Assembly (NCBI GenBank): GCA_015655015.1
Contig: JAATFV010000090.1
Location: 62,001-126,000 of the forward strand
Length of the DNA: 64,000 bases
DNA from: Chitinophagales bacterium
GTDB taxonomy: Bacteria; Bacteroidota; Bacteroidia; Chitinophagales; Chitinophagaceae
Reading direction: 5' to 3'
Both the position numbers and the translations under genes were made by a program. Below, piece by piece: positions 15,718 to 54,006 of this stretch; position 1 is the first letter of the stretch, and every line of letters starts with the position of its first letter. The notes beneath the pieces are model-generated. The model was not told the DNA's origin. It worked only from the letters and a program-made list of their open reading frames with translations, and did no database searches.

Positions 15718-15751
15718 AACGGGAAATGCAATTACATTTCCCGTTTGTATT
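15718..15751 (+). terminator. Plus-strand hairpin upstream of susC, module A
   Basis: An 11-base perfect stem (15718-15728 with 15735-15745, loop CAATTA) followed on the plus strand by TTTGTATT. On the minus strand, the direction of the operon, no T run follows. It lies in the 188-base gap between fecR and susC. This is one of four such elements at equivalent positions; see findings for the antisense RNA idea. The T run is the weakest of the four. Confidence 0.45.
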
Positions 15752-15821
15752 GAAGGGGGGAAAGTTATGTACTGACAGGCATAAGCAATCGTTTTTCGTT
15801 ATTAAAAGCAGTTAGCTATTT

Positions 15822-16913
15822 TTAGTCGATGACTACGGTATTATTGTTCCTGTTTAATTTGTAATGAAATGGATAGGTCAGGCTCAACGCATCCAAAGCA
15901 TCGGTAATACTCTCATTACTGAATGTGCCGGTGAATTTTTTGGAGAGGATAGAAGTGTCCTTCACCTCGATGGAGACATTAAACCAACGCTCTATATCCC
16001 TGGCCAGCTCGTCAAAAGTTTTGCTGCGAAATATCAGTTTATTATTTACCCAGGATGTTTCAATTATGGCGCTGCTGACAGGCTCGTATTGGATGGATGA
16101 AACTATGATGGCTGGACTTTCTTTCCAGGTTGCGCACGTACGCCGGGCAATATCTTTAGCTATATTCGTTTCTTTATTAGCGATGGCGATCTTGTCATGG
16201 GGTTTGAGGATCATACTCTCCTGTGGACGACCGGGGAAGCTGACTTCAATAGAGCCCCTGATGAGGGCAGCTTCGGTAGTGGCGTCACCCGGATAGGCTT
16301 TTACATTAAAAACGGTGCCCAATACTTTTACATCCATTTTTCCCGTGTGAAGTATGAACGGCCTGGCCGCATCTCGCGCCACATCAAAATAAGCTTCGCC
16401 GATAAGGGTGAGCTCCCGGTTCTTCTTACCATAATTCTCGTCATAGTTAATCCTGCTGCCCACATTCAGCCAGACCTGGGTGCCATCAGGCAATTCAATT
16501 TTTGATTTGGAGCCATTCTTTGTAGAAACAATATTTTTTTGGGGGGGTGCTGGAGGAACAGGCGCCTGTAATGCTCTCCATAAATAAATACCAACGATGG
16601 GTATAAGTACGGCAGCTATGGCGACCGCATATTTTATCATGCGTCTACCCTTTTTCACGCTGGCCGGCAACCCGTCTACCGGTGTCTGATCGGCAATTTT
16701 ATTCCGGAAGCTGTCCCAGATCGTCTCAATCTCATCTGTAGCGGGGGCAGAGGCTGCCGGCATCGGAAGCTCCCAACACGCATCTATTTGCCTTACCAGG
16801 TCGAGGTCACCTGGATGAGCAGAGAGGTGCTGACTGAGATCCAGCTGTTCTTCGGGCGTGGCTTCGCCTGATTTAACCTTTGCCAGCAGCTCCCAAAACC
16901 TGTTTTTTTCCAT
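15822..16913 (-). CDS. FecR-family anti-sigma factor (module A)
   Basis: A 363-residue inner-membrane regulator. The N-terminal 90 residues are the cytoplasmic anti-sigma part (ATPEEQLDLSQHL), one transmembrane helix follows at about 92-112 (YAVAIAAVLIPIVGIYLW), then the periplasmic FecR domain (KSKIELPDGTQVWLNVGSRINY, GEAYFDVARDAARPFILHTG, VLGTVFNVKAY), and a C-terminal STN-like DUF4974 region (FDELARDIERWFNVSIEV). It should hold the neighbouring ECF sigma factor until the SusC STN domain signals that substrate is bound. It lies 77 bases after the sigma gene in the same direction. Confidence 0.95.
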   Translation of the reverse strand: MEKNRFWELLAKVKSGEATPEEQLDLSQHLSAHPGDLDLVRQIDACWELPMPAASAPATDEIETIWDSFRNKIADQTPVDGLPASVKKGRRMIKYAVAIAAVLIPIVGIYLWRALQAPVPPAPPQKNIVSTKNGSKSKIELPDGTQVWLNVGSRINYDENYGKKNRELTLIGEAYFDVARDAARPFILHTGKMDVKVLGTVFNVKAYPGDATTEAALIRGSIEVSFPGRPQESMILKPHDKIAIANKETNIAKDIARRTCATWKESPAIIVSSIQYEPVSSAIIETSWVNNKLIFRSKTFDELARDIERWFNVSIEVKDTSILSKKFTGTFSNESITDALDALSLTYPFHYKLNRNNNTVVID

Positions 16914-16990
16914 TAGATGATATATGCATCATTAAGACAGGTAAATAGGTATAATACCCTGAAGCGATATAAAAATATTTCGGAAAATAA

Positions 16991-17584
16991 TCATTTACCC
17001 ACCCGGCCGGATTGGTAAAACCGGTTCCCGGAAGGCAGGCGGGTTTGCAAAGCAGCGCCTATTTTACTGAGGGCCAGCGATATTTGGGTCTCAACAGTCT
17101 TTATAGAAACATTCAGCAGGTCTGCAACTTCCCTGTATTTCAAACCGTCTTCCTTTACGAGACGGAACATGAGCTTGCAGCGGGGCGGAAGGTCGTTGAT
17201 GATGGTTTGTATCATTCGGACCCCTTCTGCAGAGATCAGGGTATCTTCCGGATTAACAGAAATGTCGCCAAACTCCACTTCTACATCCTCAAGGCTGATA
17301 AGGGGCCGCTTTTTCATTTTTTCCAGGTAATCCAGCGCCTTATGCTTGGCTGCTACCAGGAGGTAATAATTGACATTATTGATAGCGGGCAATACCTTCC
17401 TGTTTTCCCATAATTTCAGGAACACATCTTCCACGGCTTCTTCTGCGTGTTCACGGCTTTTAAGAATGGCTTCGGTAAATATTAAAAGACGGGTATAATG
17501 CAGTTTAAACAGCTCTCCAAAAGCCACCTCATCATCGAATTTCGCTATTTGCAGACATAATTGATTGATGTTAGTGGTTGGCAT
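16991..17584 (-). CDS. ECF RNA polymerase sigma factor (module A)
   Basis: A 197-residue sigma-70 family protein of the FecI/ECF type common in Bacteroidota. Region 2 covers about residues 20-95 (AFGELFKLHYTRLLIF, EEAVEDVFLKLWENR, LLVAAKHKALDYL) and region 4 about 130-185 (LPPRCKLMFRLVKEDGLKYREVADLLNVSIKTVETQI). It should direct transcription of the SusC-SusD-rhamnosidase operon when released by the FecR protein encoded just after it. Confidence 0.95.
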   Translation of the reverse strand: MPTTNINQLCLQIAKFDDEVAFGELFKLHYTRLLIFTEAILKSREHAEEAVEDVFLKLWENRKVLPAINNVNYYLLVAAKHKALDYLEKMKKRPLISLEDVEVEFGDISVNPEDTLISAEGVRMIQTIINDLPPRCKLMFRLVKEDGLKYREVADLLNVSIKTVETQISLALSKIGAALQTRLPSGNRFYQSGRVGK

Positions 17585-17740
17585 GGCAATGTTAAGTTAC
17601 AGGTGCAATATATAATATTTTCCCATACTTATTATGCGCGTCGAATCCGGATTCGTAAAAGCGATATTCAGAAGGGTGATCTTCCCAGATCCCGCATACT
17701 CACCTGTCCCGAAAGATGCGCCCCTCTTGACGCTGTTTTA

Positions 17741-17774
17741 TAAAAAGAAAACCCCTTCGCTAATTAAGGGGTTT
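17741..17774 (-). terminator. Rho-independent terminator of module B
   Basis: Stem AAACCCCTT / AAGGGGTTT (17749-17757 with 17766-17774) followed on the minus strand by TTCTTTTTAT. It lies 37 bases beyond the stop of the last module B gene, in the correct orientation to end that operon, and separates it from the module A sigma gene. Confidence 0.8.
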
Positions 17775-17810
17775 CCTTTTTGGGCAATGAGGAGTTGCCT
17801 TTACACAATG

Positions 17811-18950
17811 TTAGTTAAGCGGCTTGATCAACTCATCCAGCTTCTTAAACAGCTCCTCTCCTCTTAAATTTTTTGCAAGGATCGTTCCGTCCGGGCCGAT
17901 CAGAAAATTCTGAGGAACGGCCCTTATATCATACAGCTTTGCAACCGCATTGTACCAGTATTTAAGGTCCGACACCTGTGTCCATTCCAGTCCATCTTTT
18001 TTGATGGCGGCCAGCCAGGCGCCCTTTTCCCCCGGACGATCCAGCGACACCCCTAATAAAGTAAAGTTCCTGTCTTTATACATATGATAGGCTTTCACAT
18101 AGTTGGGGTTTTCGGCACGGCAGGGTCCGCACCAGCTGGCCCAAAAATCAAGCAGTACATATTTACCCCGGAGATAGGAGAGTTTTACAGGCTGATCATT
18201 CACATCATTCTGCGTGAAATCAGGGGCCTGGACACCGATGCCTGTTCTTTTAGCCGTTTCGATCTGATCTGCAAAATGTTTACCTGCCTCGGTATTACGC
18301 AGCCTTGCCGACAATCCCTTGTATAAGGGTTCGATGATGGCCGGATCGATTTTGGATCCCCCGGCCTCCGTTAGTGCCACCAGGCTGCCATAATTATCAG
18401 GATTTTCTTTGGCGAACTTCTTATCCAGCTCTTTCAGCCGGATACCGGCGGCATGCATTTCGGCCCAGATGGGGTTGCAGAAGGCCGTATCCCGTCTCTT
18501 TTCTGCGGGCGCCAGCATCATCTCTGCATTGAGGTCCTGCAGCTGGTTCATAGGTCCCGAAATGTACTTATTGTAAACGGCTACCTCATCGTTGAGCTTT
18601 GAGCCCGTTATATGGGCCTTTTTTACAGAGTCTGTTGTCTTTATATGAATAGTCGCCTTCTCCATATGAAAGTACAACATGTCGGGCTTGTGGCCATTTG
18701 CATAACCGAATCCCCGGTTGTCCAGCCATAACATGGTGACAACAGGATAAGGAACGTTCTCATGCAAAGTGGCTTTCCCACTTCTGATATCCGCGGAGTC
18801 AACCACATGTTGTTCTCCCTGCTGCCAGGACAGATAAACTTTAGAGGCATGAACGGTATCGATATTGACATCGATGGTGCAATCGCCGCCAGTCTGCGCC
18901 CATCCCATGACCGGGAGCAAGGCAAAAATAAACAGTATGTTCTTTTTCAT
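17811..18950 (-). CDS. TlpA-family thiol-disulfide oxidoreductase with DUF4369 domain (module B)
   Basis: A 379-residue periplasmic or surface protein with signal peptide MKKNILFIFALLPVMGWAQ. Residues about 20-120 form a DUF4369-type beta domain; the thioredoxin-like domain starts near residue 240 (APDFTQNDVNDQPVKLSYLRGKY) and carries the redox motif WASWCGPC and the cis-Pro loop VPQNFLIGPDG. Such proteins reduce disulfides or cytochrome c precursors, but in these uptake loci their partner is unknown. It is the last gene of module B and begins 1 base after the stop of the other TlpA-type gene, so they are translationally linked. Confidence 0.9.
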   Translation of the reverse strand: MKKNILFIFALLPVMGWAQTGGDCTIDVNIDTVHASKVYLSWQQGEQHVVDSADIRSGKATLHENVPYPVVTMLWLDNRGFGYANGHKPDMLYFHMEKATIHIKTTDSVKKAHITGSKLNDEVAVYNKYISGPMNQLQDLNAEMMLAPAEKRRDTAFCNPIWAEMHAAGIRLKELDKKFAKENPDNYGSLVALTEAGGSKIDPAIIEPLYKGLSARLRNTEAGKHFADQIETAKRTGIGVQAPDFTQNDVNDQPVKLSYLRGKYVLLDFWASWCGPCRAENPNYVKAYHMYKDRNFTLLGVSLDRPGEKGAWLAAIKKDGLEWTQVSDLKYWYNAVAKLYDIRAVPQNFLIGPDGTILAKNLRGEELFKKLDELIKPLN

Positions 18951-18951
18951 A

Positions 18952-20661
18952 TTAGTTGTGTTGATTTAGAAGTGATGCGATCCTGTGACCTGAAGGTGTT
19001 CCGCGAAGAGGCCCGGTCAGCGACATATACAGCGGATATACTTCACCATCGCCCCCGCCTGTCATATCAGACACCAGGCTGAGCGAGAGAAAGGACTGAG
19101 GATGAGCCTGAATATATTTGATCCGCATATTGCGCTGGTTCTCCTGTCCGGAGACATCCTTTATAGTAGCTGCAAAGGCTTTTGCTTCTTCATCCAGCCA
19201 GGACCCTTTTACTTTCAGATTATCCGGTGAGTCGGCTTGTCCGGACAGTTCCAGGTAGCCGATGTCGGAGTAGAACTGCAGCATTCGATGGCTGGGCATC
19301 AGCATAACCTGGATCTTTTGCGGCTCCGGCATGAGGGTCAGCCAGGTGAAGCTGCCTTCGTGAATGACTGCTGTATCCTGCTTCGGTTTGTCGCCGGCAT
19401 AGTAGCGGAAGAGCGCCAGGCTGTCTTTCAGAGAGGAGATATGACCGTCCAAACGCATATTACGCCCACCTTCGAAGATCTCCATCAGCTTGCTCATCAG
19501 ATCCCGGTCCCGGAGATTTTTAGCGATGATGACACCATTGGGGTCCAGCAGCACATTCTGCGGGATCCCCTTGATGCCGTAGAGCACAGCCGCCGAGTTA
19601 TCCCTTCCTTTCAGATCGGATACCTGTAGCCAGGGCATATTATCCTCTTTAATGGCCTGCAGCCATTTATCCTTCTGGCTGGAATCATCCAGGGAGACAC
19701 CCAGCACGGTGAAACCGCTGTCCTTGTAGGCATTATAGGCTCTTAATACATTGGGGTTCTCCGCCCGGCAGATGCCGCACCAACTGGCCCAGAAATCCAC
19801 CAGTACATATTTGCCCCGGAAAGAAGACAGGCTGACTGGCCGGCCCTGCACATCGGATTGTATAAAGTCCGGTGAATGAACCCCTATCAGCGCTTGTTTG
19901 ACGCTGGCTATTTGTGCAGCCAGGTCCCTGCCTTCCTTAGAATCCCTGAATTTCAGGCTAAGGGCCTTGAAGGAGGGCTCTATAAGCTCTGGTTCCAGGG
20001 CAACCCTGAGATCATATACCATGTCCCAGGAAGCATATGCATCGGGATATCTGGCAACCAGTGCAGCCATGGCCTGTGCGGATGCCAGTCGTTGCTGATG
20101 AAATGCTTCATTCAGGATCCTGACAGAATCTTTATTCCCGCGATTGTAATAAGCGCTCCCCCGCACATCATTCATCCGTTCTATGTACGGTTTACCGATC
20201 TTTTCCCATTCGTCCGCCACTGCTGTTGAAGTGCTCCCTGTGACAGCTGCCTCAGACAGGGATCCTTTACTGTTCACGGTAATGACCCCGGGTTCAAGGT
20301 ACAACTGTCTTTCTTCATAAGGAGAATACCTCACATTATCGCTGTTGGCCGATCGTTTGCAAAAAAGCCGCGCTCTAATCGGTGTACTTAGCGATCCTTT
20401 GAAAATAAAATGTCCGTCACTGACGATGGCAGAGTCCTGTATACTCCTGCCACTTGACTGATAATTCAGGTACAGCACGATGGGGTACTTCGTGGCTGTT
20501 AATAGTCCCTTCAGCATAAAGGGGCCGTTTGCCTTCTGAAGAAAAGAAATGCTGGCCTTCTGCGGAAAGGGCAAACCGCCGTCTGGCGCACATTCTCCGG
20601 CTGTCATCCTCATCAGGAGGAAGGCTGCCGGCAATAGTTGCCGGAATGAACGATAAAGCAT
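18952..20661 (-). CDS. TlpA-type protein with a central thioredoxin domain flanked by two DUF4369-like domains (module B)
   Basis: A 569-residue exported protein. After a signal peptide (LLPAAFLLMRMTAGECA) comes a DUF4369-like beta domain (about 45-160), then a helical linker, then a thioredoxin-like domain (about 270-390, HSPDFIQSDVQGRPVSLSSFRGKY) with redox motif WASWCGIC and cis-Pro loop IPQNVLLDPNG. Unusually, about 180 residues follow that again look like DUF4369 plus its helical linker (MRLDGHISSLKDSLALFRYY, DTAVIHEGSFTWLTL, YLELSGQADSPDNLKVKGS) with no second thioredoxin domain. It could be a fused tandem of two TlpA proteins that lost one catalytic half. CGIC instead of CGPC may shift redox potential. 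Confidence 0.85.
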   Translation of the reverse strand: MLYRSFRQLLPAAFLLMRMTAGECAPDGGLPFPQKASISFLQKANGPFMLKGLLTATKYPIVLYLNYQSSGRSIQDSAIVSDGHFIFKGSLSTPIRARLFCKRSANSDNVRYSPYEERQLYLEPGVITVNSKGSLSEAAVTGSTSTAVADEWEKIGKPYIERMNDVRGSAYYNRGNKDSVRILNEAFHQQRLASAQAMAALVARYPDAYASWDMVYDLRVALEPELIEPSFKALSLKFRDSKEGRDLAAQIASVKQALIGVHSPDFIQSDVQGRPVSLSSFRGKYVLVDFWASWCGICRAENPNVLRAYNAYKDSGFTVLGVSLDDSSQKDKWLQAIKEDNMPWLQVSDLKGRDNSAAVLYGIKGIPQNVLLDPNGVIIAKNLRDRDLMSKLMEIFEGGRNMRLDGHISSLKDSLALFRYYAGDKPKQDTAVIHEGSFTWLTLMPEPQKIQVMLMPSHRMLQFYSDIGYLELSGQADSPDNLKVKGSWLDEEAKAFAATIKDVSGQENQRNMRIKYIQAHPQSFLSLSLVSDMTGGGDGEVYPLYMSLTGPLRGTPSGHRIASLLNQHN

Positions 20662-20702
20662 AGTATAATTTTAAAAGATTAAAGAATTCAAAACATACGG
20701 GA

Positions 20703-22184
20703 CTACCCGACCTTGAACACGAGGCTGACGATCTTTTTAAAACCTCCGCTCTTCCGTGTATATGCATTGCCGGTGATGTCGCCGGTGGGAGAAATGGGCA
20801 GGTCATAGACGATCCCTTCTCCGGAAGAACTATAAGTAGCTACGGTGATAGTATTAATGGTGACATCCTGCCATGCAAGGGCCGTAACATTCTCTCCCGG
20901 AGGAAATGTGTAGACAACCCGGGACTGGTTGGCAGCCATATCATAGACATACAGGTTGTTATCAGCTGCATAATACATCTGCTTTACCGTGCTGGAGAAC
21001 AGGTAGTCAGGGCTCTTTTGTACATTGGGGCTGTTGAGGATTGCCTGCTTCGCCTGTGCTACCGGCGTAGCCGCAAGATCACCGTTGCCATTAATGGTAT
21101 AGAGGAAACAGCTGTCATCGCCTTCGTTCTTAAAAACTGCATACCAGTTGTTAGGCCAGAAGCTGGCTCCCAAACCAGCCTTCATCGTAAGCATCTTCTT
21201 GTGGACATTGTTCAGATCGAATGCCATGGTGTTATTGGCGGGCCAAAGCTTCAAGGTGGTGGAGGCGCCACCGCCATCGTACATGAACCGGTAATTGGCC
21301 TGATCAAAAAAGATCGCGCCATAGGAGAGCCCCCCCGCTACAAAAGGAGCTGCAGTATATCCCAGTGCATCGGGTTGGGTGAATGCCGTACCAAACAAAG
21401 TGGAGGCGAAGGTGCCGTTCAGTCCATAGATCTTCCCATTGTTGAATGTAAAGGGCCCGTATGAAAAGGGGCTGGGTTTGTACATATTATGCGGCTGAAC
21501 CACAGCTGGAGGTGAAAAGAACAAACCGGAGTATTTACCAATGACTTGCAGGCTTGTATTGTCCATCGTATAACCATCCCCATCAAAATACACCATATTG
21601 AGCGTCCCCAGGAGGCTACCCGTATTGGAGCTGATGAGCTCCCTGGCAGAAGATGGCAGGGGGGTATTGGGGTTGGATACGGAATATACCCCATGGTAGA
21701 GCTTACTATCGGGTGTTATAAAGCTGATGTCCGTGTAACCGCCATCATTCTCCAACAGCATCCATCCTGTCTGGAAGGCTGTGGTTACCTGCAGGAGCAA
21801 ATGCTTGAAATAACTTACACCCGTGATCGTATCGATCATTACAAGGTCTAAACTATAATAGTTGGCCCCGGCACGAAGGGTGATCTGCTCATTGAAGGTA
21901 TGCTGGGTGGATAATACCACGATCTTGCCAATGCCCAGCGGCTGCGCAGGATCGGCTACCGGGTAAACGCGCCATTCGTACCGCAGACGGGAGGTATCCG
22001 GCGCAACCACCTTCGGCTCGATCTTTAAAGTATCCAGCCGGGTGATCCTGAATGTATCCGCAATAGTGGCGGCATACGCATCATTGATGGCATGATAGGC
22101 ATAATTGCCTTTATCTTTATAACAGCCTGCCAGGATCAATGCTCCCGCCAGGGTGAATATAATTGCATTAAATAGTTGACGCAT
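20703..22184 (-). CDS. PKD-like-family lipoprotein (module B)
   Basis: A 493-residue lipoprotein with lipobox LILAGC (Cys21). The start CYKDKGNYAYHAINDAY and the following LRYEWRVYPVADP match what I know of the Bacteroidota PKD-like lipoprotein family that accompanies particular SusC/SusD pairs. The rest is repetitive beta structure (WMLLENDGGYTDISFITPDS, NLYVYDMAANQSRVVYTFPPG) suggesting a propeller-like fold. It is 18 bases after the DUF4843 gene and 41 bases before the first TlpA-type gene. It is probably a surface accessory binding protein; its ligand is unknown. Confidence 0.75.
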   Translation of the reverse strand: MRQLFNAIIFTLAGALILAGCYKDKGNYAYHAINDAYAATIADTFRITRLDTLKIEPKVVAPDTSRLRYEWRVYPVADPAQPLGIGKIVVLSTQHTFNEQITLRAGANYYSLDLVMIDTITGVSYFKHLLLQVTTAFQTGWMLLENDGGYTDISFITPDSKLYHGVYSVSNPNTPLPSSARELISSNTGSLLGTLNMVYFDGDGYTMDNTSLQVIGKYSGLFFSPPAVVQPHNMYKPSPFSYGPFTFNNGKIYGLNGTFASTLFGTAFTQPDALGYTAAPFVAGGLSYGAIFFDQANYRFMYDGGGASTTLKLWPANNTMAFDLNNVHKKMLTMKAGLGASFWPNNWYAVFKNEGDDSCFLYTINGNGDLAATPVAQAKQAILNSPNVQKSPDYLFSSTVKQMYYAADNNLYVYDMAANQSRVVYTFPPGENVTALAWQDVTINTITVATYSSSGEGIVYDLPISPTGDITGNAYTRKSGGFKKIVSLVFKVG

Positions 22185-22202
22185 GATTATAAGCTTGTAA
22201 GG

Positions 22203-22964
22203 TTAGGGAAATGTAACAGCATTGCCATTCTCATCCATAAGCGGTCCATGTGCCGCGTTATAGTCGACCAGTGCATTCCTCACTACAGTCTGGTAGTATT
22301 GGAGCTGCGGGTATTTCAGCGCATTCGGCCCTGTATTCGGAAAGGATGAAACGCCCAGCACCCCGGCCATGAACCTGAACTTGACCTCACTGTAAGTTCC
22401 GAAAAAAGTAACCAGGTAGGTGTCCCAGTTGCTGGGCTTGATCAGCCTGTCGGTAATGATGATCCTGATACTGTTCCGGCTATAGTAACCTCCATCAGCC
22501 ATAAGCGTATCTTTCATCAATGCCGGAAAATCAGCGGAAGGCTGCAGCTGGAGGTTCAGCACAACAGACGTGTCCTGTAAAGAAGCGTCACGGATCAGCA
22601 CCACACCCAGGCTTGTCTGGAAGGAATCCTTCGGCATGACATAATCCATCAGCTTGTAATGAGTGCCCGCTATAGCTGTTGTACCATTGCTGACGACGGT
22701 CAGATTGATAGGGCGGTCCTGAGGGGCCGTAAGACCTGCAATACGAACGGGCAGCCAGACCGTATCCGTCGTGACCGAACTGTTTTTGTCCACGAAAGTG
22801 TAGTTAAGGCTATCAATATTGCCCGTGGCGGCGGCGGCGGATGTATAAATGAAATACACGCTGGCCCGGGCATCGGTGCCCGCGGCGATCTTTTGTTTAG
22901 TACAGGCGCTGAGCAGGCAGGCCGGCACAAGAAATATATAAATCAAACGTATGATCGGTTGCAT
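22203..22964 (-). CDS. DUF4843-type lipoprotein (module B)
   Basis: A 253-residue lipoprotein starting at ATG 22964 (MQPIIRLIYIFLVPACLLSAC, lipobox Cys21). The frame stays open a further 57 codons upstream but overlaps the SusD gene and has no signal-peptide character, so the shorter start is right. Features matching DUF4843: RASVYFIYT, DTVWLPVRIAGLTAPQDRPINLTVV, GTHYKLMDYVMPKDSFQTSLGVVLIRD, and a C-terminal helical part. DUF4843 proteins regularly sit between SusD and a PKD-like lipoprotein, as here. Likely a surface accessory protein; role not established. Confidence 0.8.
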   Translation of the reverse strand: MQPIIRLIYIFLVPACLLSACTKQKIAAGTDARASVYFIYTSAAAATGNIDSLNYTFVDKNSSVTTDTVWLPVRIAGLTAPQDRPINLTVVSNGTTAIAGTHYKLMDYVMPKDSFQTSLGVVLIRDASLQDTSVVLNLQLQPSADFPALMKDTLMADGGYYSRNSIRIIITDRLIKPSNWDTYLVTFFGTYSEVKFRFMAGVLGVSSFPNTGPNALKYPQLQYYQTVVRNALVDYNAAHGPLMDENGNAVTFP

Positions 22965-22986
22965 AAAATAAGTTGACGTTGAAGGA

Positions 22987-24423
22987 TTAATTACCTCTGT
23001 ATTGCAATTCCGCATCCGGCAGGGGCAATATGTAGATATTGTCAGATGCCTGTGTAGCCAAAAACCTGATCTGGGACTTGTCCAATCTTTTGTAGTAGTA
23101 GAACAATTGACCTTCCGCATAGAACTCCTTCCCATATTCTTTGAAGATCTCGTTCTGTACAGTGGGTGCGTCCAGTCCTGCGGGGAGATCGCTGAGACCT
23201 CTGTGCTCCCGCACCGTATTCAGATAGCCGGTAGCAGCAGCCGGATCGGAGCATTCAGCGGCGATATAATACATTTCCGGCAGCCGCATCAGGGGCACGA
23301 GGTTGTTGAATGCCTGGTTAGAGGCTTCCTGCCAGTATTTCGTATCAAAATAGACGTTGCCGCTAAGCTGCCAGAGACGTGCATACCTGACATCTGTTAC
23401 GCCTCCCGATGCGATCTCATAGATCTGGTCCACGATCCCGCCGCCGCCATAGGTATTGGTAAGCTGTACGCTCACGCCTGTATTGACGGTGCCTGACGGC
23501 GTCTTGAAATAGGTATTCACCTGAGTCAGCAGATTGAATTTGCTAAGGGAAAAGATCTGCTCGGGAATAAAGGTATAGTCGTGGTAATTGCTGATCCGGT
23601 CGGAGGTCTCGAAGCTGAACAAACCGGAGTTGATCACATTCGTTGCATGGACCAATGCATTCTGCTTATCGCCTTTGTACAGGTAAACCCTCGCCAGGGC
23701 AGCCTCCGCCGCCCAATAGTTGAAATGGCTCTGACGCCGGTTGAGCCAGTCATTCTGCAAAGTCACGTTATCCACCGGGAAGTTTACATCGATAGCCTTA
23801 TATCCGCTGAGCAGGCCGGAAGCGGCCGTCAGGTCCGCAATCACACTGTCCAGTATTCCACTGACCGTCGACAGGGGAGTTACACCACCCGAAACGGTAG
23901 TGACATAGGGAATGGCGTTCCGGGAAGCATGACTGGCGTATGAACCACCGAAGATCCGCAGCAGGTCAAAATGCATGAATGCGCGCAGTCCCAATGCTTC
24001 GCCCTTTATCAGCTCATAGTTCCCAGGCTGGAACAAGTTCTTCTTTGCATCGATATTAAGTAAAATATTGTTAACATTGGTGATGGCATTGTACATCGAA
24101 TCCCAGATATTCGTGATCCTTGTCTTTACACCTGCATCCGTGTAATTATAGATGGCAGCCTGATAAAAGCTATTGCCCGGCACGGTCTGGCAGCTGTAAT
24201 TCTGCGCCAGCACGTCCATGAAGCTCATCGTCAGCTGATCTCCGTAAAGGGAAGAATTGGACATCACCGTATATACACCGTACATGGCGTCTTCGAAACC
24301 TTGTTCGGAGGTGAAAAGCTGGCTTTGTTCCACTGCTGTCTTAGGCTTTGCATCCAGCCATTTCTTACAGCCGGAAATAAAGATAAGGGTGAGCAACAAA
24401 AAAGCTATTATTTCTTTTTTCAT
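22987..24423 (-). CDS. SusD/RagB-family lipoprotein (module B)
   Basis: A 478-residue lipoprotein from ATG 24423 (MKKEIIAFLLLTLIFISGC, lipobox Cys18); the frame is open 20 codons further, but that part overlaps the end of susC. SusD features: KKWLDAKPKTAVEQSQLFTSEQGFEDAMYG near the N-terminus, ALGLRAFMHFDLLRIFGG, RLPEMYYIAAECS and the C-terminal FYAEGQLFYYYKRLDK. It ends PLPDAELQYRGN, the shorter ending seen in SusD proteins paired with DUF4843. It is the lipoprotein lid of the module B transporter. Confidence 0.93.
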   Translation of the reverse strand: MKKEIIAFLLLTLIFISGCKKWLDAKPKTAVEQSQLFTSEQGFEDAMYGVYTVMSNSSLYGDQLTMSFMDVLAQNYSCQTVPGNSFYQAAIYNYTDAGVKTRITNIWDSMYNAITNVNNILLNIDAKKNLFQPGNYELIKGEALGLRAFMHFDLLRIFGGSYASHASRNAIPYVTTVSGGVTPLSTVSGILDSVIADLTAASGLLSGYKAIDVNFPVDNVTLQNDWLNRRQSHFNYWAAEAALARVYLYKGDKQNALVHATNVINSGLFSFETSDRISNYHDYTFIPEQIFSLSKFNLLTQVNTYFKTPSGTVNTGVSVQLTNTYGGGGIVDQIYEIASGGVTDVRYARLWQLSGNVYFDTKYWQEASNQAFNNLVPLMRLPEMYYIAAECSDPAAATGYLNTVREHRGLSDLPAGLDAPTVQNEIFKEYGKEFYAEGQLFYYYKRLDKSQIRFLATQASDNIYILPLPDAELQYRGN

Positions 24424-24442
24424 ACCAGTCAATTTTAAAATG

Positions 24443-27400
24443 TTAAAAACCCAGTTGCAGTGAGAATGAATAATTGCGGGCAAAAGGATAGGCCAACCCT
24501 CTTTCCTGCCTGATCGATGATACTACAAAAGGATTATTGATATAGAAATAACACTGCAGACGGCTCATCTTCCAGTTGCTGATCAACCGCTGGGGCAACA
24601 GATAGCCCAGCGTAATGGCATCGCAGTACAAGGTATTGTTCTTCTGTATAAATCGGGAAGTCGCCCTGGTGATATCCGTACGGGTTGTCCCATCTATCCT
24701 GGCCACACCTTTATAGAGGGCGACATCTCCCGGCTTCTGCCAGCGATCTGTCAGCACCCTGCTATCCACATTATAGGCCGGATTGGCGTTCTCTATCATG
24801 TCAGCCAGGGTGCCGTTATACATTTGACCGCCCAGTTCCGTGCGCATAGCTATATTGATGCTTGCCCCCTTGTACATTAAGTTAGTGCCTATATTACCGG
24901 TGACCTTTGGCTGGTTATCCCCTACCGGCACTTCATCCAGAGGATTCCACAGATAGGTCTGCTGCCCGTCGCGGGAAAGGAAGATCTCGTTACCTGTGCT
25001 GGGGTCGATGCCAAGGGAACGTACTGCATAGATAGTGCTGACACTCTGCCCTTCCTTATATTGCAGCACGGGCGCCGTGATCGGGTTAACCGCCGCTGTC
25101 TGCTGCGCCACTGCTTTGTCATTCTGTGCTTTCAGGGCGTCGGAGATCTTCAGCAATTTATTCTGATTGTGCAGTAGATTCGCATAAAAGCTCCAAAAGA
25201 CATTTTTCTTTTCGTTTTTCAGCGCAAAGGCGGTGAGATACACTTCATATCCCTTGTTCTGTACTTTTCCCAGGTTGGCGTAGAAGCTGGAGAACCCGGA
25301 GGAAGGGGTTGTATTGACGGCGGTAAACAGATTGTCCGTCTTTTCCACATAATAGTTGAAAGTAGCCTGTATGCGTCCGTTGTACAGCTCAATGTCCGTA
25401 CCTAAGTTCGCTTTATTGGTCTGCTGCCATTTGAGTTGATTATTGCCAAGGCTTTGCATGGCTGCCCCGATGCTGTTGAGATAGCGGAAGCCTGTCAGGT
25501 AAGTATAGGTTTGTTCAGCCGCGAAGGACGGAAAATTCTGTGAACCGGTGGACCCATAGGATGCACGTACCTTGAAACGGTTGAATACAGCAGGAAGATT
25601 CATAAATTTCTCCTTATGAAGGTTCCATCCTGCACCTACCGACCAGAAAGGCGCATAATGCTGGTCAGTACCGAACAGGGAAGAGCCATCCCTTCTGAAA
25701 GAAAGGTCCAGCAAATACCGGTAATCATAGGCATAGCTAAGATTAGCATAATAGCTGATCTGCCTGGCGATGCTCTCCGATCCTGCCGGCTTGTCATTAA
25801 TGGGGTACTGAAGACCAAAGAGAATGTTATCCATGCTGGAATTGGGAAACCCCTGCACGCTCACCGTGTTGGAATAAGATCTATCCTGCTGGATGTGGGA
25901 GCCGGCGGTAGCAAAAACAGTGTGGCGTGCGAAATTCTTGCCATAGTTGAGAAAAACATCCGACTGGTAGCTATTGGTCACCCCTGTCGTCTGCTGGTAA
26001 TAACCGCGGGTCGAAAAGAGGCTGTCCGGCGTATTCACGAATTCCACCGCATCTGCCGGCAGAAATACATTGCCTGAATTCTTCTGGCTATACATACTGA
26101 AACGGGCGCTGAGCTTCAGGCTCTCTTTGATATTCCAATCCGCCTGGAAATTATCAGCGACCCTCAGATAGCCCGTATTGTTTTGTGTTCTCAGCGTAGC
26201 ATCGTACATAGGGTTGTATACGAGGGTCTCCTGCCTGGCAGGTTCATAGATATTTTGCAGGATCTTGGGTATCTTTCCCGTGACGCTGTCAATGGGGCGC
26301 CAATAGGGATTCAGCAAGGCATATTGGGAGAAGCTGCCATAGGGGCTGTTCACGGAATTATTATAGGTGACGGACAAGTAATTGGTGAACTGCAATGCAT
26401 CCTTATGATAGATGAGATGAACGCCGCCCGACAGATCATTCCGATGGGAGCCTTTCATTATTCCACCATTATTGTTATAGGAGAGATCCACGCCATACCG
26501 CATGTAATTATCGCCGCCATCCAGGTAGATACTGTGCTTCTGGCTGAATTCCTTAGCCAGGGGCTTTGAAAGCCAATAGGTGTTAACTCCTCTCTGCGCC
26601 TCCGCCAGCCGCATGTTATACAATTGATCCATTCCTTCCTGTACGGCTATGCCATAAGAAGGAGTCGTTGTATAGATGCCTGCTGCTTTTTCCAGCTGCA
26701 GCTTCTGCATGGAATTCAGCAGGTGGTAGCTGGTGAGATCGGGCGTACTTAGAGAGAGGTTATTATTGTAAGAGAGCCTTAACTGTCCTTTTTTTGGCTG
26801 TACCGTCTCTATGACCAGTACGCCATTGGCGGCTTTCGAGCCATAGATGGCAGTAGCGGCAGCATCTTTGAGGATCGTGAGCTTGCTGATCCGGCTCATG
26901 TCGAGGTCATAGATCGTCTGCAAGGGTATTTCAAATCCATCGAGAATAAACAGCGGCGGGTTGCTGACATAGCCATACTGGCTGGTCAGATCCGTGTTGG
27001 CGATGCTATTGGCCCCCCGGACCTGGATCTGCGGCAAATGGTTCGGGTCCGACCCGAAGTTGATATCCGAAGGCATCTGGAAGGAAGCGTCCAGCGAACG
27101 TAAGGCTGCCAGCACATTCGTATTATTTACCGTCCTCAGCTGCTCAGCGGTATAAGTCTGCGCAGCGCCCGTGTAGTTCTCTGCGGGACGCTTGTAGATA
27201 CCGTTCACGACCGTCTGGTTAAGATTGCTGACGGCTGGTTTTAGCTGGAGAATGACAGTAAAGCTCCGTGCGGGAGGAGTAGGTTCTTTTACTGTTACTT
27301 CCTGCGGGTAATAATTGACATAGGTGATCTGGAGTACATCTCCTGCATTGGCTCCCATAGAGAAAGTACCTGCCGGTCCTGTAACGGCAGACTTTTTGGT

Positions 27401-27892
27401 CCGTTTATTAGTAATGGTGGCGCCTACCAGCGGCTGACCATCTTCTCCTGTAATTGTTCCGTATATGGGGATCAGCGGGGCGAGATCATATAAGATCACG
27501 TCGGATGCAGAAGGATTGTCTGGCTGCGGCTTACGAAAGAGGAGGATGGTCTTGCTCCTGATCGTATAGTCCACCTGACGATATTTAAAGAGCTCATCAA
27601 GGAACTCTTTAAAGGGACGGTCTTTTGCATAGATGGTAACGGTCTTCAAATCATTCAGGACCGAGTCGTTGAACACGAAAAAATAACCTGTCTGTTTTTC
27701 GACGGTAGCGAGGACTGACCTGACAGTGACATTTCTTCCGGAATAGGTTACTGTTTGTGATAAGCCTTTGGCCGATACGTTCAATAGGGCAGCGGTTAAA
27801 AGTATGATTGTTAGCTTCATGACTAACAGAGTTTTGGTGATATAGCGGTTGTCCCCATGGACAGACCGTCTACAAATAGCAGTTTTTTGCAT
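24443..27892 (-). CDS. SusC/RagA-family TonB-dependent transporter with STN domain (module B)
   Basis: A 1149-residue outer-membrane transporter: leader of 24 residues ending TKTLLVMK, signal peptide (MKLTIILLTAALLNVSA), STN domain (about 50-120), carboxypeptidase-like domain (about 145-215, IYGTITGEDGQPLVGATI), plug (about 225-365, with VRGANSIANTDL and ILKDAAATAIYGSKAANG) and barrel ending in SFSLQLGF. The usual VVVVGYG signature is replaced by TVVNGIYKRPAENYTGA, marking a divergent SusC branch. Start 27892 is preferred over ATG 27820 because the leader is open in frame and resembles that of the module C SusC. The module has no hydrolase, so the cargo may not be a polysaccharide. Confidence 0.95.
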   Translation of the reverse strand: MQKTAICRRSVHGDNRYITKTLLVMKLTIILLTAALLNVSAKGLSQTVTYSGRNVTVRSVLATVEKQTGYFFVFNDSVLNDLKTVTIYAKDRPFKEFLDELFKYRQVDYTIRSKTILLFRKPQPDNPSASDVILYDLAPLIPIYGTITGEDGQPLVGATITNKRTKKSAVTGPAGTFSMGANAGDVLQITYVNYYPQEVTVKEPTPPARSFTVILQLKPAVSNLNQTVVNGIYKRPAENYTGAAQTYTAEQLRTVNNTNVLAALRSLDASFQMPSDINFGSDPNHLPQIQVRGANSIANTDLTSQYGYVSNPPLFILDGFEIPLQTIYDLDMSRISKLTILKDAAATAIYGSKAANGVLVIETVQPKKGQLRLSYNNNLSLSTPDLTSYHLLNSMQKLQLEKAAGIYTTTPSYGIAVQEGMDQLYNMRLAEAQRGVNTYWLSKPLAKEFSQKHSIYLDGGDNYMRYGVDLSYNNNGGIMKGSHRNDLSGGVHLIYHKDALQFTNYLSVTYNNSVNSPYGSFSQYALLNPYWRPIDSVTGKIPKILQNIYEPARQETLVYNPMYDATLRTQNNTGYLRVADNFQADWNIKESLKLSARFSMYSQKNSGNVFLPADAVEFVNTPDSLFSTRGYYQQTTGVTNSYQSDVFLNYGKNFARHTVFATAGSHIQQDRSYSNTVSVQGFPNSSMDNILFGLQYPINDKPAGSESIARQISYYANLSYAYDYRYLLDLSFRRDGSSLFGTDQHYAPFWSVGAGWNLHKEKFMNLPAVFNRFKVRASYGSTGSQNFPSFAAEQTYTYLTGFRYLNSIGAAMQSLGNNQLKWQQTNKANLGTDIELYNGRIQATFNYYVEKTDNLFTAVNTTPSSGFSSFYANLGKVQNKGYEVYLTAFALKNEKKNVFWSFYANLLHNQNKLLKISDALKAQNDKAVAQQTAAVNPITAPVLQYKEGQSVSTIYAVRSLGIDPSTGNEIFLSRDGQQTYLWNPLDEVPVGDNQPKVTGNIGTNLMYKGASINIAMRTELGGQMYNGTLADMIENANPAYNVDSRVLTDRWQKPGDVALYKGVARIDGTTRTDITRATSRFIQKNNTLYCDAITLGYLLPQRLISNWKMSRLQCYFYINNPFVVSSIRQERGLAYPFARNYSFSLQLGF

Positions 27893-27998
27893 ACATTTGC
27901 AAGGTTTGGGTGATGAATAAGCAGTTCTCTCAAGACTTGTTTTTGTATATTACTCAGACGCCTGCCGGAAGTGGTTGCACACTTTCGGCTTTGTTTTG
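27892..27998 (+). ncRNA. Candidate antisense RNA over the susC leader, module B
   Basis: On the plus strand an exact TAnnTTTG box (TACATTTG, 27892-27899) is followed about 65 bases later by a 10-base stem (27964-27973 with 27980-27989) and TTTGTTTT. A transcript starting near 27906 would be about 90 bases and antisense to the fecR-susC spacer. The stem includes G27968-T27985, a wobble pair only if the plus strand is the RNA; the minus-strand RNA would have a C-A mismatch. No convincing -33 box was found. Confidence 0.4.
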
Positions 27999-28010
27999 AG
28001 CAATAGAAGA

Positions 28011-29267
28011 TCAATGATCGCTGACAATGACTGTCCTCCCTGACAGTTTGTATTTAACATGCATTTTGGTTAGGAATTCAAATATCTCATCAAGGTTAAG
28101 TCCTTTGTCCATTTTGCCCGACACTTTGATATTCGGCACTTTGCCTTCATATCTGACATCTATGTCGTACCATCTTGAAAGTTGCCGCATCACCGTAACA
28201 ATATCGGTGCCGATGCCGGTGCTGTCGAAATCGAATAAGCCATTTTTCCAGGCTATGACCTGTTCGATGTCTGCTTTTTCGTTCAGCTGTAAGTGATCGC
28301 TCATGACGGCCTGCTGTCCTGGTTTCAGGATCAAGCCTGGATGTGCTTTGCTATCCTGGGAGGATATTGCGGAGGACACTTTGATACTACCTTCCACGAG
28401 CGTGGCCTTTATAGCATTTTCGTCGTTGTAGGCAGTTATATTCAGGCTCGTCCCCAGTACGTCCACATCGATGCCGCCCGCTGATATTTTAAAGGGTTTT
28501 TCTGCATTGCGGGCTACTTCGAAATAGGCTTCTCCGGAGATGGAGACCTTTCTTTCGGCGCCATTAAATGCTGTGGGGAAAGTGATCTGGCTGGCTGCAT
28601 TCAACCACACTTTTGTTCCGTCAGGCAGCACCAGCTGATATTGTCTGCCCCTGGGAGTTGTAATGGTATTATAAGTGATAGTCTCCACCGCCGTTGTTAT
28701 AGGATGATAGGACAGCTGTCCATCGACGACTGTGGCCTGTGAACCATTTTGCCTGGCGATCACACCGTTCCGAAGGCTATCAAGCGTTAGCTGCTTTCCA
28801 TCCGCCAGGGTCAGAATGGCGCCCTGGCGTCCCGGCGGGATAGGCTGAGACTGTTTTGCCGCTATTGCAGGACCCGGAACTGATCTTGAATATCGGATCC
28901 ACATCCCCGTACCGGCTATTATAATGATGACGGCGGCCGCGACCCTGAACCAGGCTTTTCTCAGGGAAAGGGAACGTTGGATAGTGGGAATGGCGGGGGC
29001 ATCCTGCTCTGATGGATTATCCATCCTGCGCCAGATCTCGGCTCTCAGGTCGGCTTCTAATGCAGCAGCCTTGTGATAATCACCCATCAGCTGATCCAGG
29101 TAAGCGGGGTTGGTGCACTGCTCAAACCAGGTTTTATGCCATCCGGCCGCGCTTATCCAGGTCTCAAGCTCCTCTTTTTCCGTCCCCGAAAGCTCTCCGC
29201 GAAGGTGTTTGGCTATTAATTCGGCAGCTCGTTCCTGCCCCGATATAAGTTCTGAGGGATCTTGCAT
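28011..29267 (-). CDS. FecR-family anti-sigma factor (module B)
   Basis: A 418-residue regulator. Cytoplasmic anti-sigma region to about residue 95 (ELIAKHLRGELSGTEKEELETW), one transmembrane helix at about 103-120 (FRVAAAVIIIIAGTGMWI), then a long insert typical of Bacteroidota members (GAILTLADGKQLTLDSL), the FecR domain (TTPRGRQYQLVLPDGTKVWL, SGEAYFEVARNAEKPFKI, VLGTSLNITAY) and a C-terminal DUF4974 region (DIVTVMRQLSRWYDIDVRYEG). It should control the ECF sigma factor encoded just upstream and respond to the module B SusC. Confidence 0.95.
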   Translation of the reverse strand: MQDPSELISGQERAAELIAKHLRGELSGTEKEELETWISAAGWHKTWFEQCTNPAYLDQLMGDYHKAAALEADLRAEIWRRMDNPSEQDAPAIPTIQRSLSLRKAWFRVAAAVIIIIAGTGMWIRYSRSVPGPAIAAKQSQPIPPGRQGAILTLADGKQLTLDSLRNGVIARQNGSQATVVDGQLSYHPITTAVETITYNTITTPRGRQYQLVLPDGTKVWLNAASQITFPTAFNGAERKVSISGEAYFEVARNAEKPFKISAGGIDVDVLGTSLNITAYNDENAIKATLVEGSIKVSSAISSQDSKAHPGLILKPGQQAVMSDHLQLNEKADIEQVIAWKNGLFDFDSTGIGTDIVTVMRQLSRWYDIDVRYEGKVPNIKVSGKMDKGLNLDEIFEFLTKMHVKYKLSGRTVIVSDH

Positions 29268-29340
29268 TTGTTACTAAAACGACAGACCCCGATTTTACTA
29301 CTATGAAATTTCCAGGAATTTTTCGATCAGGCAGGAAAGG

Positions 29341-29946
29341 TCATTTTTTCAGGAACTCAAGCAGACCTATGTAACCGCCGAGGGAGGCGCCGGCCATGCC
29401 GTTGCGGAGAAAGGCAGCCCGCAATTTCTTCATGGCTGTAGTTTTCTGATTCCAGACTGTTTGGAGGGAGATGCCTAATTGCCTGGCAATTTCTTCGGAC
29501 GTAAGCCCTTCGTAATAGGCTAATTGAACGATCTCGCGACATTTGGCCGGCAAGGCCTGGATCTCCTGCTCCAGCCGCACGACCAGTTCCGCATTTAAAA
29601 CAAGGGCAGAGACCTCTTCAGGATGGTCTACCCAATAAGCATAATTACTCTTTGAAGTTTCCTGTCTTTTTTTTGCTTTCAGGAAATCCAGCGATCGGTT
29701 GCGGGCAGATATATATAAGAAGGCTTTCATAGCGGCAAGGGAATTAAAGCCCGTTCTCCTGTCCCATAGTTTGATAAAGACTTCCGCCAATATATCCTTT
29801 GCATCCTCCGCATCCCCTACCAGCCTTACTACCATATAGATAATACGCTGATAAAACAATGAGAACACTTCATTAAATGCGTGCTGATCCCCTTCTCCCA
29901 TTCGCCGCAATAATTCCTGCTCATCCTGTACCTTCTCTATTGACAA
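29341..29946 (-). CDS. ECF RNA polymerase sigma factor (module B)
   Basis: A 201-residue FecI-type sigma factor: region 2 (AFNEVFSLFYQRIIYMVV, DAKDILAEVFIKLWDRR, YISARNRSLDFLKAKK) and region 4 (LPAKCREIVQLAYYEGLTSEEIARQLGISLQTVWNQ). No ATG is available at the expected place: the frame opens with a TTG at 29946, preceded by a stop. The TTG start gives 22 residues before the region 2.1 AF pair, the same as in the other three sigma factors here (21-22), so it is preferred over ATG 29901. The TTG is also part of a TAAATTTTG string that resembles a promoter box, so the start is not certain. Confidence 0.9.
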   Translation of the reverse strand: MSIEKVQDEQELLRRMGEGDQHAFNEVFSLFYQRIIYMVVRLVGDAEDAKDILAEVFIKLWDRRTGFNSLAAMKAFLYISARNRSLDFLKAKKRQETSKSNYAYWVDHPEEVSALVLNAELVVRLEQEIQALPAKCREIVQLAYYEGLTSEEIARQLGISLQTVWNQKTTAMKKLRAAFLRNGMAGASLGGYIGLLEFLKK

Positions 29947-37858: not shown

Positions 37859-37967
37859 ACTTTTGGTTAGTTTGGGTTAAACAATAAACAGTCTCTCCGG
37901 ACTATATTTAATTTGGGGAACCCGAACGCCGCCGCTCCGGTATCTCACACCGGGGCGGTTTTGTTTA
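37858..37967 (+). ncRNA. Candidate antisense RNA over the susC leader, module C
   Basis: Exact plus-strand TAnnTTTG box (TACTTTTG, 37858-37865) overlapping the susC start codon, followed by a 10-base stem (37932-37941 with 37949-37958, loop of 7) and TTTTGTTT. A transcript from about 37872 would be about 95 bases. T37936-G37954 is a wobble pair only on the plus-strand RNA and an A-C mismatch on the minus strand. About 47 of 63 aligned columns around the box match the same region of module B. Confidence 0.4.
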
Positions 37968-46152: not shown

Positions 46153-46164
46153 GCCGGGATATGC

Positions 46165-50513: not shown

Positions 50514-50553
50514 AAATTAGTTATTTATATTGTCCTTAGTAAATGTGTTTATA

Positions 50554-53500: not shown

Positions 53501-53928
53501 GACCCTTTCGGAGAGACGGTGACGCCTCCCAAAGGCTGGCCGTTGTCATCGGAAACCTGCCCTTTCACGGAAGTGCCCGTGTGGCCGGGCTTGTCATTGG
53601 ATGAACGATGGCTCTTCCTGTCATCGCTGACGATGAGAATACTTTTTCCTTTTACCACATACCGTGTATTGGTGCCGGCAAGCAGGCGGGTAAGCACGTT
53701 GGATAGAGAAGCCTGTTTAACGGTGATAGTCACTTTCCGGTTCTGATCCAGCACATCATAAGGATAGTCAATACTGAAACCTGTCTGGGCGCTGATCTCT
53801 TTGAATGCATCTTTCAGGGTACCCTGTGTAATGCTCAGGTCCACCTTTGCAGAGCGGATATCCTGCCCCAGGGCGACGGCGCTGCAGCACCATAATAAAA
53901 AGCCAAAATAAAAGGATTTTAATTTCAT
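50554..53928 (-). CDS. SusC/RagA-family TonB-dependent transporter with STN domain (module D)
   Basis: A 1124-residue transporter from ATG 53928 (signal peptide MKLKSFYFGFLLWCCSAVALGQ); an in-frame ATG at 53952 would add 8 residues. Domains: STN (about 30-100, GTLKDAFKEISAQTGFSIDY), carboxypeptidase-like (about 115-190, VKGQVSDDNGQPLGGVTV), plug (about 195-350; MSEVVVTALNFKRNPRSLGYSV, VRGAVSLTGSTQPLWVIDG, VLKGNAAAALYGSRASNG) and a barrel ending FGLTLKVGL. It signals to FecR, encoded upstream. The paired nucleotidase suggests nucleotide or phosphoester uptake. Confidence 0.95.
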   Translation of the reverse strand: MKLKSFYFGFLLWCCSAVALGQDIRSAKVDLSITQGTLKDAFKEISAQTGFSIDYPYDVLDQNRKVTITVKQASLSNVLTRLLAGTNTRYVVKGKSILIVSDDRKSHRSSNDKPGHTGTSVKGQVSDDNGQPLGGVTVSPKGSSQAVSTNQDGLFETKTIDADAVLVFSCIGFENKEVPVSGRSSVNVQLAKNSRLMSEVVVTALNFKRNPRSLGYSVGQLDGNKVSTVQTPNIISALSGKIAGVDVSNVADGVAGTKRVVIRGAVSLTGSTQPLWVIDGIIIDASSMGGPTATGAIDYGDGLTGINPDDVENISVLKGNAAAALYGSRASNGVILITTKKGKPGGQTHAELSSSLLADKFTNPTDFQYEYGQTSKANGAELPTSATDAYTADSWGHKLDGSPAVGFDGVTRPFSPHKDNYERFFRTGSTITNTAALSGSSGNSDYRISVSDLRNTDIVPNSGFTRTSLNSKLHSKFGKLDADLVLDYGYEKATNRPFLGGNTSNIFYSLLYLPGNISIDNLKPGYLPDGTELEYAAGVSNPYFFINKQHEDDTRNRLTGGLTLKYQFTDWLYARGRMTRDYYLFKRFEYVPEGALSTSTQLGALEQVSVDNTSNNYEFIVGADPLSRGKFHINIFAGGNVSWRARNQSSLNGNTFVIPGVYTFNNLQAKTPSTSVTTQRTNSLFGSMELSFDKYLYLTLTARDDWFSTLPANADNLLYPSAALSFVFSDALKLPYWISSGKLRASTAQVSGDAGPGQLDLSYKLSATPYNSNPLQYIGTGNIPNKNLKPLLSTDYEFGLEMGFLHERLGFEASYYNRSVKNDIVTASVSDATGYSTAVENIGKLSSKGIEISFRATPVQTKNFTWDLTATFSTNDNKVIALGNGVQPGANIVLENSKAGNGTIQLEEGKQYGGIYGFTYTRDVKGQKVFDKNGLPLFNTIPIRLGNGEYTRLMGMSNTFSYRNFSLYFLLDAKFGASIYSETNAEAYSNGKHKATLPGRETGLTGEGVNQSGGPNTVKVAPENISTFYKQLENVTEQFVYNASFVKLREIAFRYALPKSFLEKTHLSGASISLVARNLLTLYKDKRLENIDPESSLESGSAQGIERMVFPPTRNFGLTLKVGL

Positions 53929-53975
53929 AAATTGCGTTGCGTTTTTTGTCATTAATGAATTATTGATGGCATTCC

Positions 53976-54006
53976 ACCATCCCGTTGCGACCGGGATGGT
54001 TTTTTA
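53976..54006 (+). terminator. Plus-strand terminator upstream of susC, module D
   Basis: A perfect 9-base stem (53976-53984 with 53992-54000, loop of 7) followed by TTTTTTATTTTT on the plus strand only. It lies between the fecR stop (54020) and the susC start, antisense to the operon. Of the four such elements this has the best T run. No clear plus-strand promoter box was found before it. Confidence 0.6.

Follow-up and report, generated by a model that had tools for sequence, protein, structure and literature searches.

The closest described counterparts of the elements reported here are antisense RNAs of Bacteroides. DonS is a cis-antisense RNA that lowers its own susC operon in B. fragilis (PMC7366714, PMC10994844, PMC5635687), and 10, later 32, antisense RNAs associated with polysaccharide utilization loci (PULs) were counted in B. 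thetaiotaomicron (PMC7366714, PMC10994844). We analyzed a stretch of 64,000 nucleotides (nt) from a Chitinophagales bacterium of the Chitinophagaceae (contig JAATFV010000090.1, positions 62,001 to 126,000, forward strand; hereafter the window), in which four sites, A to D, carry a terminator-like hairpin between a fecR gene and a susC gene, on the strand opposite to the operon. Considered together with a survey of the entire genome, these sites suggest that the hairpin-bearing fecR-susC junctions probably encode short cis-antisense RNAs, predicted from sequence to be DonS-type repressors of susC. A preliminary description of the window had already proposed plus-strand RNAs ending upstream of each susC; to this we add a promoter box over the susC start codon, a long-range helix designated P1, and a genome-wide family of paralogous RNAs.

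Like the DonS type, the predicted RNAs are short, run antisense to susC homologues and follow a promoter box of the sigma-ABfr type, and in both cases repression is presumed. The DonS family spans 78–128 nt, a range that takes in 89 of the 96 RNAs predicted here, including those of sites A (108 nt), B (94 nt) and C (98 nt); the 69-nt RNA of site D is short. A position antisense to the 5′ region of susC was found at sites A to D and in 74 of the 75 matches scored with a covariance model of the family (R2), and a promoter of their own is recognizable by sequence, as TAnnTTTG in 57 and as TAnnTTGY in 13–14 of the 102 junctions with a strong hairpin. A canonical promoter is described for 52% of the B. 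thetaiotaomicron cis-antisense RNAs (PMC7366714). Compared with DonS as it is described, our RNAs are set apart by lineage and by the placement of the box over the start codon. Copy number also differs, with at least 75 copies found by the model and 108 counted by their terminator in this one genome against the 10, later 32, of B. thetaiotaomicron, as does the presence of a covariance-supported fold with a long-range helix, of which the accessible descriptions of DonS-type RNAs contain none. A second point of reference is provided by the FopS and GibS small RNAs, which act with RbpB (PMC11697453) and, like ours, are paralogous RNAs in multiple copies that target susC leaders close to the start codon; proteins with an RNA recognition motif (RRM) are present here as well. 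However, FopS has 14 copies, 9 of them intergenic, and separate targets (PMC11697453), whereas the RNAs predicted here lie opposite their own susC leader, and the mostly intergenic placement apart from the target that marks FopS was not seen among the model matches. Our literature search retrieved no Chitinophaga report on antisense or small RNAs with TonB-dependent receptors, which is weak evidence given that most subscription journals lay outside the search; within the same limits, the literature retrieved on antisense RNA with susC, or with extracytoplasmic function (ECF) sigma factors and polysaccharide utilization, consisted of work on Bacteroides, one Flavobacterium transcriptome and unrelated papers. 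That transcriptome, from Flavobacterium psychrophilum (PMC9723704), lists the DonS paper among its references, and the word DonS is absent from its text.

The genome to which the window belongs is a draft of 8.11 Mb with a contamination estimate of 5.85%, and it holds at least 150 matches to FecR_C, most of them followed by a susC. Two of 150 FecR_C matches, at contig ends, were excluded, as were eight FecR rows with susC absent within reach or within the piece covered, and L006 was excluded as a duplicate of site A, which gave a final set of 141 fecR-susC junctions. A terminator-like hairpin opposite to the operon was present in 108 of these and one on the operon strand in 18, and antisense terminators appeared in 48 of 282 dinucleotide shuffles and in 17 of 141 fecR coding stretches of equal length. 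Among the discordant junctions, 92 carried the hairpin on the antisense strand only and 2 on the sense strand only. We thereby confirmed that the antisense hairpins at fecR-susC junctions are real and not a product of chance. Strong hairpins, defined by dG ≤ -13, accounted for 102 of the 108, and the group of 39 junctions without a strong hairpin takes in the 6 weak ones. The 8 nt after the 102 strong hairpins contained 6.2 T on the antisense side versus 2.3 on the sense side (5 or more T on the sense side in 1 of 102), and when the two strands of each hairpin were compared, the antisense version was the more stable in 87 and the sense version in 14, both comparisons being biased because the hairpins were chosen on the antisense strand. 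For that reason, the raw count of G-U against A-C in the terminator hairpins (183 vs 23) was set aside, and a partner-swap test on P1 and counts of alignment cells, described below, were preferred.

Upstream of these hairpins, the antisense strand carries a promoter-like box. In 65 of the 102 strong-hairpin junctions, the hairpin was preceded at 50–150 nt by an exact TAnnTTTG (mononucleotide shuffles, 5.4%; other strand, 1 of 102). This box lay over the in-frame susC ATG in 57 of the 102, in 2 of the 39 junctions without a strong hairpin and in 0 of 1673 internal ATGs; the last two figures argue that it is not merely a translation-start context. Counting TAnnTTGY at the same place as well, the numbers became 70 of 102 (57 + 13) versus 2 of 39 (p = 2e-12). 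For sigma-A, the main sigma factor, the published box is TAnnTTTG at -12 to -5, and TAnnTTGY in this position corresponds to motif SM5 of F. psychrophilum (PMC9723704). Within the window, boxes B and C are of the TAnnTTTG type and boxes A and D of the TAnnTTGY type. A looser search for starts, requiring CATA and at least two of the four TTTG letters, was passed by 96 of the 102 strong-hairpin junctions, and the ATG of these candidates was in frame with susC in 95 of 96; it is the frame agreement and not the presence of an ATG that constitutes the finding, because CAT was required by the search. A weak TTTG signal 19 nt before the box (38–45 of 96 per position) agrees with the TTTG near -33 of the B. 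fragilis promoter consensus (PMC7366714). On the sense strand, a CCnAAA(A/C)-type element just upstream of the susC start was observed in 24 of the 39 junctions without a strong hairpin (shuffles, 16%; other strand, 0 of 39), and we regard it as a candidate ECF-dependent susC promoter or leader element.

Setting the first base of the RNA 12 nt beyond that of the box and counting an 8-nt tail, we obtained predicted antisense RNAs of 69–150 nt, of which 75 of 96 measured 88–108 nt. In the main sequence family, the 5′ end GUUUGGGUUAA pairs with UUAACCYGAAC just before the terminator to form helix P1. The P1 pairing score across the 96 RNAs was 18.2, compared with 14.8 ± 0.31 when partners were swapped between loci (top of 100 swaps, 15.6). 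RNAalifold returned no structure on either strand from a plain MAFFT alignment of 80 mixed RNAs; from 28 picked copies it recovered P1 and the terminator helix, and 15 of the 20 pairs showed two-sided changes. These 28 copies, the basis of model R1, include sites B and C and were hand-picked by eye for clear motifs, so that the set may favor the structure; the partner-swap test on 96 RNAs is independent of this picking. A covariance search then reached 72 copies, from which model R2 was built. In the 72-copy alignment (A3), all 20 of 20 pairs showed two-sided changes, and the covariation score was 0.578 versus 0.224 ± 0.010 for shuffled alignments (0 of 500 reached 0.578), with slid versions at or below 0.155. 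The cells of A3 held G-U and A-C in ratios of 141:7 in P1, 84:5 in the terminator and 225:12 in total, and because a G-U cell forms a pair on the antisense strand only, this excess identifies the strand opposite to the operon as the RNA strand; it must be held against this count that A3 was fitted to the model and favors its structure, G-U counts included, a bias from which the partner-swap test is free. A middle hairpin, pairing CAGUC with GAYUG and with its motif in 60 of 96 RNAs, was not established (10.57 vs 10.02 ± 0.24 swapped; the top of 200 swaps, 10.63, exceeds it). No Rfam 15 family matched the window at gathering score or ten strong members at E ≤ 1.

The four sites of the window follow this layout. 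Folding bore out the plus-strand hairpins of the preliminary description, with stems of 9–11 pairs at all four sites, a T tract downstream at each (weakest at site A, with 5 T in 8) and a G-U pair in stems B and C. Its placement of them in fecR-susC spacers of minus-strand operons also held by domain content, each site lying between a FecR gene (FecR_C) and a SusC-type receptor gene (STN and Plug), both on the minus strand. The features are as follows.

15633–15640, plus strand: site A promoter-like box TAACTTGT (TAnnTTGY type, motif SM5; PMC9723704) over the susC start codon
15645–15752, plus strand: site A predicted antisense RNA, 108 nt with tail, by layout only (R1 and R2: none at E ≤ 1)
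15718–15745, plus strand: site A terminator-like stem-loop with a weak T tract
12268–15633, minus strand: susC A, presumed target (open reading frame start 15633)
15822–16913, minus strand: fecR A (anti-sigma factor type)
27892–27899, plus strand: site B promoter box TACATTTG (TAnnTTTG) over the susC start codon
27904–27997, plus strand: site B predicted antisense RNA (94 nt), family member (R1 63.4 bits, R2 61.7 bits)
27904–27914, plus strand: site B helix P1, 5′ arm GTTTGGGTGAT
27949–27959, plus strand: site B helix P1, 3′ arm ATTACTCAGAC
27964–27989, plus strand: site B terminator stem-loop with a G-U pair
24443–27892, minus strand: susC B, presumed target
28011–29267, minus strand: fecR B
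37858–37865, plus strand: site C promoter box TACTTTTG (TAnnTTTG) over the susC start codon
37870–37967, plus strand: site C predicted antisense RNA (98 nt), family member (R1 71.5 bits, R2 69.7 bits)
37870–37878, plus strand: site C helix P1, 5′ arm GTTTGGGTT
37919–37927, plus strand: site C helix P1, 3′ arm AACCCGAAC
37931–37959, plus strand: site C terminator stem-loop with a G-U pair
34340–37858, minus strand: susC C, presumed target
38041–39183, minus strand: fecR C
53928–53935, plus strand: site D promoter-like box TAAATTGC (TAnnTTGY type) over an in-frame susC ATG
53940–54008, plus strand: site D predicted short antisense RNA, 69 nt, weak match (R1 18.9 bits, E 0.36; R2 23.1 bits, E 0.18)
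53976–54000, plus strand: site D terminator stem-loop
50554–53952, minus strand: susC D, presumed target (open reading frame as listed)
54020–55096, minus strand: fecR D

Sites B and C are clear members of the RNA family, both being also part of the 28-sequence set. For sites A and D, where no convincing model match was obtained, the support is that of the layout, namely box, short gap and terminator. The earlier proposal of plus-strand RNAs ending upstream of susC was supported: pairing on the antisense strand speaks for it, with the reserve that A and D share the layout only. The whole-junction fold was the more stable one on the plus strand at all four sites (plus/minus, kcal/mol: A, -40.3/-34.7; B, -39.3/-25.8; C, -41.3/-33.4; D, -24.2/-18.0). 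A generic terminator scan of positions 14000–29500 proves little by itself, because its 18 terminator-like sites compare with 14.0 ± 3.5 in shuffles; site B ranked first among them, and site A was not among them. Judging from the box and the other copies, the start codon of susC D is more likely at 53928 than at the listed 53952. The protein encoded by susC C is 37% identical to one of Niastella yeongjuensis (Chitinophagaceae).

A separate observation concerns the apical part of some terminators. Those of L036, L060, L064, L074, L088 and L097 in this genome and of L273 in Niastella have in common a long, partly conserved apical stretch of the form AGGACGCCAATCT, enclosed by an ACCGGG...CCCGGT stem. 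Such conservation is unusual for a terminator loop, and the stretch could be a candidate binding site.

Subsequently, the spread of the family was assessed with model R2. The search of the genome scored 150 of 2006 first-look candidates, and the phylum sample was limited to 21 candidates per genome under stricter filters; because candidates were only partly scored, the genome-wide counts are lower bounds. At least 75 matches at E ≤ 0.05 were found in the genome of the window. All 75 were antisense, 74 of them just behind a FecR_C match and the remaining one between a fecR and a susC; a susC came next in 74, and at C49 the contig ends before it. In the genus, 28 of 33 genomes had a match, this one included, and so did all 18 with a completeness of 90% or more and a contamination of 5% or less. 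The taxonomic family yielded matches in 18 of 40 genomes and the phylum sample in 9 of 198, again with this genome included; one of the nine, L154, was rejected as a false positive, with no fecR or susC around it and a position beside the end of a zinc-ribbon-like gene. Loci taken from other genomes in the family and phylum searches lay between fecR and susC in 33 of 35 cases, and all 31 of these with a listed strand were antisense. The conserved 3′ hairpin with a T run for which the preliminary description had suggested a covariance search in relatives was thus found, its pairing being kept far better on the plus than on the minus strand. In another genome of the family, a model match (L181:1501–1596) is antisense to a susC with no fecR upstream in the piece covered, so junctions of other types may carry the RNA as well. 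Among six named genomes searched at E ≤ 0.1, Niastella yeongjuensis had 19 matches, Massilibacteroides vaginae 1 (E 0.019, directly behind a FecR_C match) and Dawidia soli 1 (E 0.0075); the other three had none at this threshold.

The layout was also scored without the RNA model in three named genomes, at the junctions that follow their top-scoring FecR_C loci. Carboxylicivirga mesophila had antisense terminators at 15 of 15 junctions and sense terminators at 2 (shuffles, 3 of 75), with a box over the susC ATG in 12; Massilibacteroides vaginae had 9 of 15 and 1 (shuffles, 4 of 75), with a box in 7; and Niastella, two loci without susC being left out, had 20 of 28 and 6 (shuffles, 23 of 140), with a box in 10. 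Niastella belongs to the Chitinophagaceae, Massilibacteroides to the Bacteroidales, which is the order of Bacteroides, and Carboxylicivirga to the Marinilabiliales of the same class. The predicted RNAs of C. mesophila and M. vaginae diverge in sequence from R2; the same layout with divergent sequence in two genomes of the Bacteroidia indicates that the arrangement is wider than the R2 sequence family.

We propose that a box of the main-sigma type (TAnnTTTG, less often TAnnTTGY) on the antisense strand would start an RNA about 12 nt on, which would head away from susC, across the susC leader, to an intrinsic terminator ahead of fecR; in the main sequence family, P1 joins its 5′ end to the segment preceding the terminator. 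The housekeeping polymerase would transcribe this RNA while the receptor operon is off. This RNA may then base-pair with the leader of leaky susC mRNA immediately ahead of the start codon, or antisense transcription may collide with the susC promoter, or both, and the receptor would stay silent until its cognate ECF sigma factor is freed and sense transcription prevails. DonS-type repression would in this way extend to most fecR-linked receptor operons of the genome.

Several findings weigh against this proposal. The hairpin is missing from 33 of the 141 junctions, neither exact box lies at the in-frame ATG in 32 of the 102 strong-hairpin junctions, and the -33 element is weak. In the window, site D is only a marginal R1 match (E 0.36), and site A has none at E ≤ 1 together with a weak T tract. 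The other 32 genomes of the genus have fewer copies by R2, 0–27 each, these being lower bounds. The P1 score on the operon strand also exceeds its own swaps, by a smaller margin (12.7 vs 11.6 ± 0.21). Moreover, the P1 5′ arm overlaps the sense-strand CCnAAAAC-type element, which 24 of the 39 junctions lacking a strong hairpin retain, and some of the conservation at the 5′ end may therefore be due to the promoter or leader of susC itself. In B. thetaiotaomicron, several pairs of antisense RNA and susC or PUL are anti-correlated and some are positively correlated (PMC10994844), and repression is for the latter reason not certain.

The alternative that survives best, which we consider possible though clearly less probable than the proposal as stated, is transcriptional interference, in which polymerase that starts at the antisense box runs across the ECF-dependent promoter of susC and blocks it, the RNA being a by-product whose fold stabilizes it. 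The box over the start codon and the course of the predicted RNA across the sense element upstream of it suit this alternative; the covariation of P1 points instead to a selected RNA fold, though such a fold could merely aid termination or stability. It is rather improbable that the hairpins serve solely to shield fecR and the sigma gene from antisense transcription straying out of the susC operon, with the RNA itself idle. In F. psychrophilum, antisense transcripts are reported over 12% of the genes and ascribed mostly to imperfect termination and stray starts (PMC9723704), and here 6 of the 102 strong-hairpin junctions lack any box-like start whatever and 32 lack an exact box at the in-frame ATG, which speaks for insulation; however, an insulator needs neither a start-codon box that co-occurs with the terminator (p = 2e-12) nor a covarying P1 whose 5′ arm lies dozens of bases from it. 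We give very little credence to the TAnnTTTG-like box being a translation-start context of susC (CAAAnnTATG on the sense strand) and not an antisense promoter, since its coincidence with the in-frame ATG at 57 of 102 hairpin junctions is rarely seen at susC genes lacking a strong hairpin (2 of 39) and never at internal ATGs (0 of 1673). Least credible of all is an attenuator or riboswitch in the leader of the sense susC mRNA, for although the structure sits in the susC 5′ leader, its P1 5′ arm overlaps a sense element that persists without the hairpin and its operon-strand P1 score slightly exceeds its swaps, this is contradicted by the strand asymmetry, namely the G-U to A-C ratio of 225:12 in favor of the antisense strand, the P1 score of 12.7 on the sense versus 18.2 on the antisense strand, and a T tract that is antisense (2.3 T of 8 on the sense side, 5 or more in 1 of 102).

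Beyond cis-repression by the antisense RNAs, it is conceivable but unlikely that each RNA also pairs with the leaders of many other receptors in a mutual-exclusion network, one antisense RNA damping dozens. Such non-cognate pairing can be envisaged because the paralogous RNAs have similar 5′ ends, complementary to a stretch common to susC leaders. Duplex energies of the 5′ end, computed for the 79 of 96 RNAs with a good box, averaged -56.6 kcal/mol with the cognate leader, -16.6 with non-cognate leaders, -12.3 with coding stretches and -9.9 with shuffled leaders. A duplex of -15 kcal/mol or better was reached by 50% of non-cognate leaders, 22% of coding stretches and 5% of shuffled leaders; at this threshold, the site B RNA reached 58 of 79 leaders, its own included, and the site C RNA 60 of 79. 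As 22% of coding stretches also reach -15 and the common stretch holds the sense-strand element, the cross-pairing may be a by-product. RbpB is an RRM-domain protein, and the genome contains 5 RRM_1 matches.

The Bacteroidota carry many SusC-type receptors under pairs of ECF sigma factor and FecR, as the at least 150 FecR_C matches of this genome illustrate. The covariance model finds members of the family straight from genome sequence, with the strand and the ends of the RNA predicted to the base, and for annotators a box over susC start codons is more likely an opposite-strand promoter than a translation signal. Collectively, if our proposal is true, an RNA-based mechanism would add a second lock to most fecR-linked receptors of this genome, and the arrangement would extend more widely through the phylum, with the DonS-type RNAs of gut Bacteroides as one of its branches.

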